A DNA stretch of 35,702 nucleotides from Acidimicrobiales bacterium (GTDB lineage: Bacteria > Actinomycetota > Acidimicrobiia > Acidimicrobiales > AC-14): assembly GCA_025463925.1 (NCBI GenBank), contig JAODBK010000043.1, positions 1-35,702 on the forward strand, read 5' to 3'. The position numbers and the translations under genes are program-made. Position 1 is the stretch's first letter. Every line of letters begins with the position of its first letter. The notes beneath the pieces are model-generated. The model saw nothing but the letters and a program-made list of their open reading frames with translations. It searched no databases and was not told the origin of the DNA. Positions 28,969 to 34,393 of the stretch are shown in pieces.

Positions 28969-30429
28969 GTGTTGACCCGGCGCCAGTTCCTCCGGACCGC
29001 GGCCGGAGCCACCGCCCTCACCGCCCTCCGACCGGAACGCGCCTTCGCGGCGCTCGCCGAGGGCGCGCCGGCGGCGCTCCCGGCCCCGGCCGCGGCGCCG
29101 TTCGACCACGTGGTGCTCCTCATGCTCGAGAACCGGAGCTTCGACCACTTGCTCGGCTGGTTGCCCGGCGCCGACGGGCGTCAGGGCGGCCTCTCCTACG
29201 CCGACACCAAGGGAACCGTGTACCCGACGTACCCGCTGGCGCCCGACTTCCAGGGCTGCGGCTACGCCGACCCCGACCACTCGTGGGAGGGCGGGGTCAA
29301 GCAGCTCGACGGCGGGAAGTGCGACGGCTTCCTGAAGACGGCGGCTCCGGGCGACACCTTCCCCATCGGCTACTACACCGCCGCCGACCTGCCGGTGCTC
29401 GCCGCGCTGGCGACCAACTACACGACGTTCGACAACTACTTCTGCTCGATCCTCGCCGAGACGTTCCCCAACCGCTTCTACCAGCACGCGGCGACGACCG
29501 ACCGCGACCACAACATGGGCGTGACGCAGTCCGTCATCACCAAGACGATCTGGACGCGACTCGAAGCCGCGGGGATCAGCAAGGCGTACTACTTCATCGA
29601 CGAGCCGTTCATCGGGCTCTTCGGCGCGCAGCACCTCACGTACGGTCGGCCGTACGCGCAGTTCCTGGCCGACGCCGCCGCCGGCACGTTGCCCGCGGTG
29701 TCCTTCGTCGACCCGTCGTTCGCCGGCGAGGGCCAAGGCGCGTCGGGCGACGAGCATCCGCACGGCGACATGCGGGCCGGCGAGGCGCTGATCGCCGAGA
29801 TCTACCACGCGCTGCGGATCGGGCCGCAGTGGTCGAAGACCGTCTTCGTCGTGAACTACGACGAGTGGGGCGGCTTCTACGACCACGTGCCGCCGCCGCG
29901 CGTGATCGACGACACCAAACCGGGGCCGACGTTCCTGTCCCCGGCGCCCCACCCGGACTACCACCAGCTCGGCTTCCGGGTGCCCTGCGTCGTGGCGTCG
30001 CCGTTCGCGCCCAAGAAGATCGTGTCGGGCGGCGCGCCGTTCGAGCACACGTCCGTCCTCAAGATGATCGAGTGGCGGTGGGGCCTCCAGCCGCTCACGG
30101 CGCGCGACGCCAACGCCCGCAACCTGGCCGAGGCCCTCGACCTCACCGGCCCGCCGCGCACCGACAGCCCGGCGATCCCGCTGCCGCCGGCGCAGGCCTC
30201 GATCGCGTGTGGCCCCACCAGCGTGGCGGCCAAGCCGCCGCAACCCCTCGCGCCGGCCGGCCCCGGCGGCGCCGCCGGCGGCGGGAGCGGCGCCCCGTCT
30301 GCATCCGGCGTGAGCGGGACGACTGCGGCCACGGGTGGTCGGAGCACCGTGGCCGTCGTCGCCGGCGCGGCGGCGATCGGCGCCGGCCTGGCCGCCCGCC
30401 AGGTGAAGGCGAAGGCCGCGGGTCCGTGA
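28969..30429 (+). CDS. Tat-exported phosphoesterase (phospholipase C / acid phosphatase family)
   Basis: A 486-residue member of the PF04185 phosphoesterase family, which includes bacterial phospholipases C and acid phosphatases. The N terminus is a clear Tat signal (TRRQFLRTAAGAT, 3-15), cut probably near residue 27. The catalytic domain begins with FDHVVLLMLENRSFDHLLGW (45-64), where E54 and N55 bind metal. Further family segments are ETFPNRFYQHA, VFVVNYDEWGGFYDHVPPP and RVPCVVASPFAP. After a Gly/Ser/Pro linker there is a C-terminal hydrophobic segment (TVAVVAGAAAIGAGLAA) and a basic tail, so the enzyme probably stays anchored in the membrane facing outward. It overlaps the next phosphoesterase gene by one base or more (TGATG). 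Confidence 0.92.
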   Translation: MLTRRQFLRTAAGATALTALRPERAFAALAEGAPAALPAPAAAPFDHVVLLMLENRSFDHLLGWLPGADGRQGGLSYADTKGTVYPTYPLAPDFQGCGYADPDHSWEGGVKQLDGGKCDGFLKTAAPGDTFPIGYYTAADLPVLAALATNYTTFDNYFCSILAETFPNRFYQHAATTDRDHNMGVTQSVITKTIWTRLEAAGISKAYYFIDEPFIGLFGAQHLTYGRPYAQFLADAAAGTLPAVSFVDPSFAGEGQGASGDEHPHGDMRAGEALIAEIYHALRIGPQWSKTVFVVNYDEWGGFYDHVPPPRVIDDTKPGPTFLSPAPHPDYHQLGFRVPCVVASPFAPKKIVSGGAPFEHTSVLKMIEWRWGLQPLTARDANARNLAEALDLTGPPRTDSPAIPLPPAQASIACGPTSVAAKPPQPLAPAGPGGAAGGGSGAPSASGVSGTTAATGGRSTVAVVAGAAAIGAGLAARQVKAKAAGP

Positions 30430-31667
30430 TGCGCCGGGCCCTCGCCGCGCTGGCGGTGGTGTCGACCGCGTGGGCGTCCACGGTGACTGGCGCGCACGCG
30501 TCCGCCCTCCCGCCGGTGAAGCACGTGTTCGTCATCGTGCTCGAGAACGAGAACTACGACGCCAGCTTCGGACCCGGCTCGAAGGCCCCGTACCTCGCGA
30601 ACACGCTCACGTCGATGGGCCAGCACCTCAGCCAGTACTACGGCATCGGGCACTTCAGCCTCGACAACTACGTCGCCATGGTGAGCGGCCAGGCGCCCAA
30701 CGTCCAGACGCAGGCCGACTGCATGATCTACACCGACTTCCTTCCCGGAGTCGTGGGTCCCGACGGCCAGGCGATCGGCCAGGGATGCGTGTACCCGAAG
30801 GCGGTGGCCACCGTGGCCGACCAGCTGACCGCCAAAGGCCTGTCGTGGAAGGGCTATCTCGAGAGCATGGGATCGCCCTGCCGCCATCCCGACCTCAACA
30901 CCCAGGACACGACCCAGCAGGCCAAGGTCGGCGACCAGTACGCCGCCCGCCACAACCCGTTCGTCTACTTCCACTCGATCATCGACAGCCCGGCCTGCGT
31001 CGCCAACGACGTGCCGCTCGAACGGCTGCCCGGCGACTTGGCGACTACGTCGACGACGGCATCGTTGTCGGTGATTGTCCCCGACCTGTGCCACGACGGT
31101 CACGATTCGCCGTGCGTCGACAAGCAACCGGGCGGCCTCGTCTCGGCCAACGCCTTCCTCGAGCAGTGGGTGCCGAAGATCCTCGGTTCGGCCGGCTACC
31201 GCGACGGTGGCCTGCTCGTCGTCACCTTCGACGAGGCGTCGAACAGCGACACCACCGCGTGCTGCGGCGAGGCTCCCGGCCCGAATTCCCCCATGCCGGG
31301 CCAGCAGGGCCCCGGCGGCGGCCGCGTCGGCGCGGTGCTGGTTTCACCGTTCATCGCGCCCGGCGGCAGCAACCCGACGCCGTACAACCACTACTCGCTG
31401 CTGCGATCGATCGAGGACCTGTTCGGTCTCGAGCATCTCGGCATGGCGGGGGCCGCCGGCCTGAAGGCGTTCGGCGACGACGTGTTCACCAACCCGCCGG
31501 CGTCGACCGTCGTCGGTCCGGTCCCGGCGCCGCCACCGGCGCCCGCGCCGGTCGCGACCCTCCCGGTCACTGGTGCGAGCACCCTGCCCGTCGCGCTGGG
31601 TGCCGCGCTGCTCCTTGCCGCCGCACTTGCCGGCCGGCGAGTGGTTCGGTCGTCCCGCGGTCGATAG
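30429..31667 (+). CDS. Sortase-anchored (LPVTG) surface phosphoesterase
   Basis: A 412-residue PF04185-type phosphoesterase, a distant paralogue of the gene before it. It has a Sec signal peptide (cut near AHA at 22-24) and the catalytic opening VKHVFVIVLENENYDASF (30-47; E39, N40), followed by SLDNYVAMVSGQAPN and VVTFDEASNSD. The tail is a textbook cell-wall sorting signal: a Pro-rich spacer, LPVTG at 378-382, a hydrophobic run (LPVALGAALLLAAALAG) and a final RRVVRSSRGR. A sortase should cleave after Thr and link the protein to the wall. No sortase gene is in the window. Start ATG 30429 overlaps the previous stop; GTG 30426 is an alternative. Confidence 0.9.
   Translation: MRRALAALAVVSTAWASTVTGAHASALPPVKHVFVIVLENENYDASFGPGSKAPYLANTLTSMGQHLSQYYGIGHFSLDNYVAMVSGQAPNVQTQADCMIYTDFLPGVVGPDGQAIGQGCVYPKAVATVADQLTAKGLSWKGYLESMGSPCRHPDLNTQDTTQQAKVGDQYAARHNPFVYFHSIIDSPACVANDVPLERLPGDLATTSTTASLSVIVPDLCHDGHDSPCVDKQPGGLVSANAFLEQWVPKILGSAGYRDGGLLVVTFDEASNSDTTACCGEAPGPNSPMPGQQGPGGGRVGAVLVSPFIAPGGSNPTPYNHYSLLRSIEDLFGLEHLGMAGAAGLKAFGDDVFTNPPASTVVGPVPAPPPAPAPVATLPVTGASTLPVALGAALLLAAALAGRRVVRSSRGR
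31560..31664 (+). other. LPXTG-type cell-wall sorting signal
   Basis: The codons for LPVTG start at 31560. They are followed by about 20 hydrophobic residues and a basic C terminus at the end of the second phosphoesterase gene, in the order sortase substrates require. Confidence 0.85.
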
Positions 31668-33006: not shown

Positions 33007-33467
33007 AGCGCGCCGGCGACCTGTCGACGCCGCGCAGCGGCCGCAGCCTCGGGATCCACTACGACCCCGAGGCCTTCGGCCGCTTCTCGGAGGCCATCGC
33101 CCGCACCCTGGGCACGGCCCGCTTCCTCGTCCTGCAGACGGGCCTCGTCATCGTCTGGATCTCGGTCAACGTCGTCGCCGCCGCGCTGCGGTTCGATCCC
33201 TACCCCTTCATCCTGTTGAACCTGGCGTTCTCGACGCAGGCGGCCTACGCGGCGCCGCTCATCCTGCTGGCGCAGAACCGGCAGGCCGATCGCGATCGCG
33301 CCATCGCCGAGCAGGACCGCGCGGTCAATGCCCGCACCCAGGCCGAGACCGAGTTCCTCGCGCGCGAGATCGCGTCGATCCGCCTCGCCCTGGCCGACGT
33401 CGTCACCACCGACGACCTGCGCGACGCGGTCGACCGGCTCGCGGCCGCGATGGAGCGGCGCCCGTGA
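33003..33467 (+). CDS. DUF1003 family membrane protein
   Basis: A 154-residue protein of the DUF1003 family. Two transmembrane helices lie at about 38-62 (TARFLVLQTGLVIVWISVNV) and 70-90, with the family's FDPYPFILLNLAFSTQAAYAAP between and across the second helix. A soluble, charged helical tail follows (AQNRQADRDRAIAEQDRAVN), probably coiled. Function is unknown for the family; it is often found next to CBS/MgtE-N and CorA-type proteins, and I infer a role with the gene upstream. The ribosome binding site is the GGGAAGG at the end of the upstream repeat. Its stop overlaps the AlkA-like start by 4 bases. Confidence 0.92.
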   Translation: MKRAGDLSTPRSGRSLGIHYDPEAFGRFSEAIARTLGTARFLVLQTGLVIVWISVNVVAAALRFDPYPFILLNLAFSTQAAYAAPLILLAQNRQADRDRAIAEQDRAVNARTQAETEFLAREIASIRLALADVVTTDDLRDAVDRLAAAMERRP

Positions 33468-34393
33468 TCGAGTCCGAGGCGCCCGACGCCGAGGCCCGCT
33501 TCCGGCCCGGCTGGTCGATCGACCTGCGCCGCTCGCTCGGTCCGATGGCCCGCTGGCCGGCCATGCGGGTCGGGCGCGACGGCATCTGGCGCGCCACCAA
33601 CACCCCGGACGGCCCGGCCACCACCCACGTGTGGGTCGATCGCAACGGCGACGTGCGCATGCGCGCGTGGGGCCCGGGCGCGTCGTGGGCCGGCGCCGGG
33701 CTGCCCGCGCTCGCCGGCGCCGGCGACGACGTCGGCGGCTTTGGCGACGTGGCGGCCCGGCACCCGCTCGTCGCCGACCTGGCCCGTCGCATGCCAGGCC
33801 TCCGGATGCCACGCACCCGCCAGGTGTTCGAGGCGCTGGTGCCGACGGTCATCGAGCAGAAGGTCACCGGCCACGAGGCCCGCCGCTCCTACGCCCGGCT
33901 CGTGCGCACGCTCGGCCGGCCGGCGCCAGGTCCCGGCGCCGCCCTCGGCCTCGTCGTCCCGGCCACCGCCGACGTGTGGGCCGCAACCGCGTCGTGGGTG
34001 TTCCATCGCGCCGGCGTCGAGCGGCGGCGGGCCGACACGGTGCGCGTCGCCGCGACGTACGCCCGGCGGCTCGACGAGGCCGCCTCGTTGCCCATGGAAG
34101 CCGCCCGGCGGAGGCTCACCGCGCTGCCCGGCGTCGGTCCGTGGACCGCGGCCGAGGTCGCGCAGATCGCGCTGGGCGACGCCGACGCCGTGAGCGTGGG
34201 CGACTACCACATCCCCAACACCGTCGCCTGGGCCCTCGCCGGCGTGGCCCGCGGCGACGACGACCGCATGCTCGAGCTGCTCGAGCCCTTCCGCCCCCAC
34301 CGCGGCCGCGTCGTCCGGCTCATCGAGGCCGCCGGCATCGGCGCCCCGAAGTTCGGCCCCCGCAGGCCGATCGACTCGATCGCCGACCGGTAG
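33464..34393 (+). CDS. AlkA-like DNA-3-methyladenine glycosylase (HhH-GPD)
   Basis: A 309-residue HhH-GPD DNA glycosylase that excises alkylated bases. EALVPTVIEQKVTG (123-136) is the conserved helix before the hairpin, LPGVGPWTAAEVAQ (221-234) the helix-hairpin-helix, and D247 in VGDYHIPNTV the catalytic Asp. The N-terminal domain (1-110) is AlkA-like. There is no iron-sulfur cluster Cys set, so it is not an EndoIII/MutY type. The GTG start overlaps the DUF1003 stop (GTGA), so the repair gene is translated with two apparently unrelated membrane-related genes. It converges on the SbcC-like gene with 2 bases between stops. Confidence 0.9.
   Translation: MIESEAPDAEARFRPGWSIDLRRSLGPMARWPAMRVGRDGIWRATNTPDGPATTHVWVDRNGDVRMRAWGPGASWAGAGLPALAGAGDDVGGFGDVAARHPLVADLARRMPGLRMPRTRQVFEALVPTVIEQKVTGHEARRSYARLVRTLGRPAPGPGAALGLVVPATADVWAATASWVFHRAGVERRRADTVRVAATYARRLDEAASLPMEAARRRLTALPGVGPWTAAEVAQIALGDADAVSVGDYHIPNTVAWALAGVARGDDDRMLELLEPFRPHRGRVVRLIEAAGIGAPKFGPRRPIDSIADR

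Follow-up and report, generated by a model that had tools for sequence, protein, structure and literature searches.

The window, a stretch of 35,702 nucleotides, is the entire contig C34 of a 4.08 Mb draft genome of an Acidimicrobiales bacterium. Two adjacent genes, A and B, lie towards its end and both encode phosphoesterases of the PF04185 family (Table 1). As the first-pass annotation had stated, the two genes overlap at their stop and start: position 30429 is at once the last base of the TGA codon of A and the first base of the ATG codon of B. Both proteins pass the PF04185 cut-off of 23 bits. A scores 228.6 bits and covers the profile from end to end; B scores 75.7 bits and covers profile positions 122-355 of 356.

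A and B are probably co-expressed from a shared transcript. A scan for a promoter and a terminator found nothing. According to Pfam, the genes flanking the pair encode an FAA hydrolase, an ABC ATPase, an MgtE_N/CBS protein and a DUF1003 protein; no link to phosphate was found among these Pfam matches, and the flanking frame at 33464-34393 has no Pfam match. On the minus strand of the window, the frame at 25182-26801 matches LytR_cpsA_psr (113 bits), a family of wall-polymer ligases.

Table 1. Positions of genes A and B in the window, with their predicted export signals and C-terminal features.
Feature	Position	Strand	Evidence
Gene A: PF04185 phospholipase-C-like phosphoesterase, 486 aa	28969..30429	+	Reading frame, GTG start, PF04185 match
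Tat-type signal of A (TRRQFLRTAAG...AFA)	28969..29049	+	Sequence; Pfam TAT_signal below cut-off; TatC in genome
TAATG, sortase-like motif of A (T instead of L)	30322..30336	+	Sequence; leave-out tail model
Hydrophobic stretch and basic end of A	30343..30426	+	Best 17-residue mean hydropathy 1.96, then RQVKAK
Gene B: PF04185 acid-phosphatase-like phosphoesterase, 412 aa	30429..31667	+	Reading frame, ATG start, PF04185 match
Sec-type signal of B	30429..30506	+	Judged by eye from sequence; without RRxFL motif
LPVTG sortase motif of B	31560..31574	+	Sequence; like tails in G010 (LPVTG) and G012 (LAATG)
Hydrophobic stretch and basic end of B	31575..31664	+	Best 17-residue mean hydropathy 2.19, then RRVVRSSRGR

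The N-terminus of A (V/M-LTRRQFLRTAAG...) contains the twin-arginine motif TRRQFL. Pfam TAT_signal matches it with 19.6 bits (E 8e-4), which is under the cut-off of 22.7, and a TatC gene is present in the genome on contig C26. A Tat signal is usual in bacterial PF04185 phospholipases C. B begins with MRRALAALAVVSTAWASTVTGAHASA, which we assign to the Sec type by eye. The predicted signals support two export routes, Tat for A and Sec for B, in agreement with what had been read from the DNA at first.

The solved structures nearest to A by sequence are phospholipases C. When B is used as the query for a PDB sequence search up to E 0.1, two antibody chains are the only matches. The predicted structure of B (mean pLDDT 81.4) has an alkaline-phosphatase-type fold, and a fold search with it places phospholipase C and AcpA structures first (TM 0.42-0.53) and sulfatases next. 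The predicted structure of A is poor (mean pLDDT 61.8). Against the NCBI model for phosphocholine-specific phospholipase C (TIGR03396, the PC_PLC equivalog), A scores 167.2 bits with a cut-off of 580.25; against the acid phosphatase model TIGR03397, A scores 112.3 and B 35.3 bits with a cut-off of 362.75. Both proteins stay below the cut-offs of the named NCBI families, and we therefore infer their substrates. Residues E54, N55, T165, D298 and E299 are invariant in the alignment of A (18 rows), as are E39, N40, S86, D268, E269 and H321 in that of B (28 rows); we take these positions to be residues of the catalytic type. A division of work would be reasonable, in which a lipase frees the phosphorylated head group and a phosphatase then frees the phosphate.

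How common is such a pair? In a sample of 248 genomes from the order, 22 have B-type and 56 have A-type matches (E up to 1e-30). Counted by hand from the coordinates, the pair occurs in 10 of the 22 B-bearing genomes (G037, G055, G063, G086, G098, G121, G130, G189, G236 and the window's own). For named genomes, we used the best 80 of 220 confirmed B-type loci, several of them cut by contig ends, and this choice biases the set toward close relatives of B. Twenty of these best 80 loci carry an A-type and a B-type gene next to each other on one strand and less than 600 bases apart, 14 in the order A-B and 6 in the order B-A. The bearers are Actinomycetota (Amycolatopsis, Nocardia, Nocardioides, Sinomonas, Gandjariella, Dactylosporangium, Planosporangium, and Acidimicrobiia and other actinobacterial MAGs) and also Proteobacteria (Ralstonia, Limnobacter, Perlucidibaca). 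The pairing itself is hence nothing new.

Nor is the division between export routes special to the window. A Tat-like motif is found in 17 of the 20 A partners but in only 3 of the 20 B partners. Of the three A partners that lack the motif, one has a problem with its frame, one lies on a truncated contig and one starts at an unclear position. In L085 and L143 the start of the B partner is short or truncated, and the B partners of L098, L105 and L106 look lipoprotein-like by eye. Where the ends are present, the 20 paired loci show no L[PA]xTG tail; the C-terminus of the A partner is missing in L092. Since an operon-like pair with two export routes is ordinary elsewhere, what this lineage adds is the tails. 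We read A and B as a lineage-specific, probably wall-anchored form of a common gene pair found widely among soil bacteria; a tail for attachment to the wall is clear on one of the two proteins and probable on the other.

A different arrangement is found on contig C17 of the same genome (L035:347-4367). A 955-residue frame there matches both a lactonase-type beta-propeller and PF04185, and a B-type frame overlaps its end. Neither of these two frames has a sorting tail.

The tail of B is classical by eye: LPVTG is followed by 20 mostly hydrophobic residues and then by RRVVRSSRGR. All the features of a sortase substrate (LPXTG, hydrophobic stretch, basic end and, by eye, an N-terminal signal) are present, as had been claimed for B together with its Sec signal. 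The NCBI LPXTG model gives the tail 15.3 bits, just below the curated cut-off of 15.9, and the tail is unlisted in the NCBI whole-protein search.

A search of the genome for sortases found three PF04203 genes (on contigs C70, C76 and C115), so that the lack of a sortase, which would have refuted the first-pass annotation, does not apply. The C70 sortase passes the cut-off of the NCBI class E model (190 bits, cut-off 160). Class E is also the best NCBI match of the C76 and C115 sortases, which stay under this cut-off with 126.9 and 93.6 bits. The C76 sortase adjoins a protein with an LPRTG end. At L002:1471-3327, an LPRTG-tailed gene has a sortase gene directly 3' on the same strand, and the two are likely a dedicated pair. 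The tails found in the genome are LPRTG (four times), LPATG (twice), LPFTG, LPVTG and VPKTG. In addition, three tails start with T: those of A (TAATG), C65 (TAATG) and C93 (TPATG). An A-type paralogue in the same genome (C70:11979-13586, L037:2480-4087) combines a Tat-type signal with an LPATGG tail. This paralogue is a cleaner candidate for a Tat-exported sortase substrate than A of the window.

The end of A had been described as a membrane segment, but it is not a bare one: TAATG precedes the helix and basic residues follow it. The C-terminus reads TAATG-GR-STVAVVAGAAAIGAGLAA-RQVKAK..., where about 18 weakly hydrophobic residues are followed by RQVKAKAAGP. The tail thus has the overall layout of a sorting signal and lacks the canonical L[PA]XTG motif. 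The NCBI LPXTG model, run at E 10, does not match it. We built a profile from 20 hand-picked tails starting with L or I, excluding A as well as G004 and G006 (near-copies of G008), G009:C263, G007:C35 and G005:C115. In this leave-out model the tail of A scores 19.1 bits (E 2e-4 for 4000 sequences), a score that includes a large composition correction of 10.7 bits. Full shuffles of the tail never reach this score (0 of 2000, best 12.2 bits). Scrambling restricted to the residues ahead of the helix, with helix and basic end left in place, gives 6 of 2000 sequences that reach it. Since the tail does better than its controls under a model that excludes A, A is more likely a sortase substrate with an odd motif, and a sorting signal is a better reading of its end than a plain anchor. 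We judge a plain membrane anchor to be less likely on the same leave-out score and scramble controls.

The other T-first tails behave differently from that of A. TPATGG in G007, the tail of the homologue nearest to A, obtains 8.0 bits, a value reached by 1499 of 2000 scrambles. For the C93 tail (TPATGG) the score is 13.2 bits and for the C65 tail (TAATG) -5.2 bits, reached by 122 and 1794 of 2000 scrambles, respectively. The C93 (L265) and C65 (L260) tails belong to proteins unrelated to A. An unrelated membrane protein (C70:47388) carries a chance PPATG ahead of its helix and scores 8.8 and 8.1 bits in two runs; a sorting-like motif alone can therefore arise by chance. We also searched the 248 genomes with a narrow T-first model, scoring at most 30 candidates per genome, and its only strong matches are its own four training rows. 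Three weak matches are a 57-residue frame without such a tail and two L-first tails (LPATGG and LPRTGG). That T-first motifs form a class of sorting signals of their own is only a suggestion, unsupported because the three other T-first tails fail their scramble controls. It is improbable that T[AP]ATG is a second sorting motif beside LPXTG, perhaps read by a different sortase, so that the two enzymes of one operon would reach the wall by different routes and through different sortases.

To place these tails among relatives, we surveyed the distinct frames of the retrieved loci, 72 of A type and 116 of B type, dropping alignments of less than 180 residues and copies that share identical last 150 residues. 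An automatic rule (hydropathy of at least 1.3 and two basic residues) marked four A-type and three B-type tails; four further A-type tails (IPTTG, LAATG twice, LPATG) were added by eye. Eight of the 72 A-type frames, A of the window included, thus end in a hydrophobic stretch with arginine or lysine after it. Their motifs are LALTG, TAATG (window), TPATG, LPKTG, IPTTG, LAATG (twice) and LPATG. The presence of x[PA]xTG in each of the eight is partly circular, because the survey printed only rows with a hydropathy of at least 1.0 or a motif, and a weak helix without a motif would escape. LAATG, the class E motif, ends the A-type phosphoesterases L245 and L246 (G007:C562 and G009:C424), which come from genomes of the same family.

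B-type tails are rare (3 of 116, window included). The tail of B recurs in only two relatives, G010 (LPVTG, 57% identity) and G012 (LAATG, 53% identity). The expectation that pair and tails would both return in relatives is borne out for the pairing, which is common among the best 80 loci, and not for the tail of B. In G012 the 7 kb around B show no adjacent A-type gene, and none is seen next to B in G010 either, where the contig is 3.9 kb long and extends just 555 bases upstream of B. Anywhere in G010, there is no A-type match at E 1e-30. The nearest homologue of A (G007, 67% identity) ends with its TPATGG, a weakly hydrophobic stretch and RR. In a tree of 69 A-type rows, A of the window falls inside a supported set of nine, three of them tailed and six tail-less. 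The tail label requires six changes on this tree, at least three of them forced by starred branches, and some tail-less rows are cut by contig ends. Tails were hence gained or lost several times.

To explain the locus, we propose that A and B are an exported pair, both anchored to the wall by sortase and jointly releasing phosphate near the cell. In our judgement the chances of this reading are even. A, a phospholipase-C-like enzyme with the alkaline-phosphatase fold, would fold in the cytoplasm and then leave through Tat. B, an acid-phosphatase-like enzyme with the same fold, would be threaded out through Sec. The C-terminal helix would hold each of them in turn, until class-E-like sortases encoded elsewhere in the genome cut the T-G bond of TAATG in A and of LPVTG in B. 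The cut proteins would be joined to the wall, where together they may release phosphate beside the cell, from phospholipids or from other organic phosphates.

Alternatively, only B is bound to the wall and A is retained in the membrane by its C-terminal helix, as a Tat tail-anchored protein that sortase leaves uncut because its motif has no leucine. This split between membrane and wall is what the first-pass annotation had proposed. Tat tail-anchored proteins do occur in Actinobacteria, according to the available text of PMC10924467, and a T in the first position is not among the class E choices described in the available text of PMC5148588. The silence of the NCBI LPXTG model on the tail of A, and the failure of the other T-first tails in scrambled controls, that of the nearest homologue included, fit such an anchor as well. 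However, the tail of A beats its own controls in a model that excludes A (6 of 2000 and 0 of 2000), and a paralogue with a Tat signal in the same genome carries LPATGG. Since the tail scores as a sorting signal and the paralogue has its LPATG, the reading with two anchors is doubtful and probably does not hold, though it stays a serious competitor of lesser probability.

The tails might also be little used, drifting remains, with A and B mainly released like their tail-less homologues. Such homologues form the majority (no sorting tail is seen on 64 of the 72 A-type frames and 113 of the 116 B-type ones, some of them cut at contig ends). However, motif, helix and basic end are all intact in the tail of B, and G010 and G012, at 57% and 53% identity, have retained it. 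We consider disused tails unlikely.

If both enzymes are anchored to the wall, a common exported pair has become cell-bound in this lineage, and the phosphate it releases would stay near the cell. Phosphoesterases would then join the short list of Tat-exported sortase substrates. The first residue of the motif in A also raises the question of how strict class-E-like sortases are.

Several known systems resemble parts of the pair. By sequence match, A is like the PF04185 phospholipases C of bacteria, fungi and plants (8hav, 8k3g, 9gy2, 9gye); unlike them, it falls far under the PC_PLC cut-off and has a sorting-type tail. B resembles the AcpA-type acid phosphatases of PF04185 (2d1g, TIGR03397), with a weak match to TIGR03397 and 2d1g in its fold search, but it lies below the TIGR03397 cut-off and ends in an LPVTG tail. 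A literature search that reached few subscription journals recognised no publication that describes an LPXTG tail on a PF04185 protein. The pairing and the Tat/Sec split are common.

Part of the initial surprise is also removed by published Tat-exported sortase substrates. To the knowledge of Gallego-Parrilla et al. 2024 (PMC10924467, available text), no natural Tat-dependent sortase substrate had previously been described; with reporter fusions in E. coli, that study verified four proteins that have both a Tat signal and a C-terminal helix and are predicted to be sortase substrates. A and its LPATG paralogue are like these proteins in Tat signal, sortase motif, helix and basic end. The verified substrates, as given in the same text, include HtaA-domain, SCO1860-family and other LPXTG proteins, unlike A, and the words phospholipase, phosphoesterase and phosphatase are absent from the main text of PMC10924467 as available. 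Class E sortases prefer LAXTG, whose leucine sits in a non-polar pocket (PMC5148588, available text). By this preference, neither LPVTG nor TAATG would be an ideal substrate: A differs by its T in the first position and B by its P in the second. Like the described class E system, however, the family to which this bacterium belongs has both class-E-like sortases and LAATG tails.
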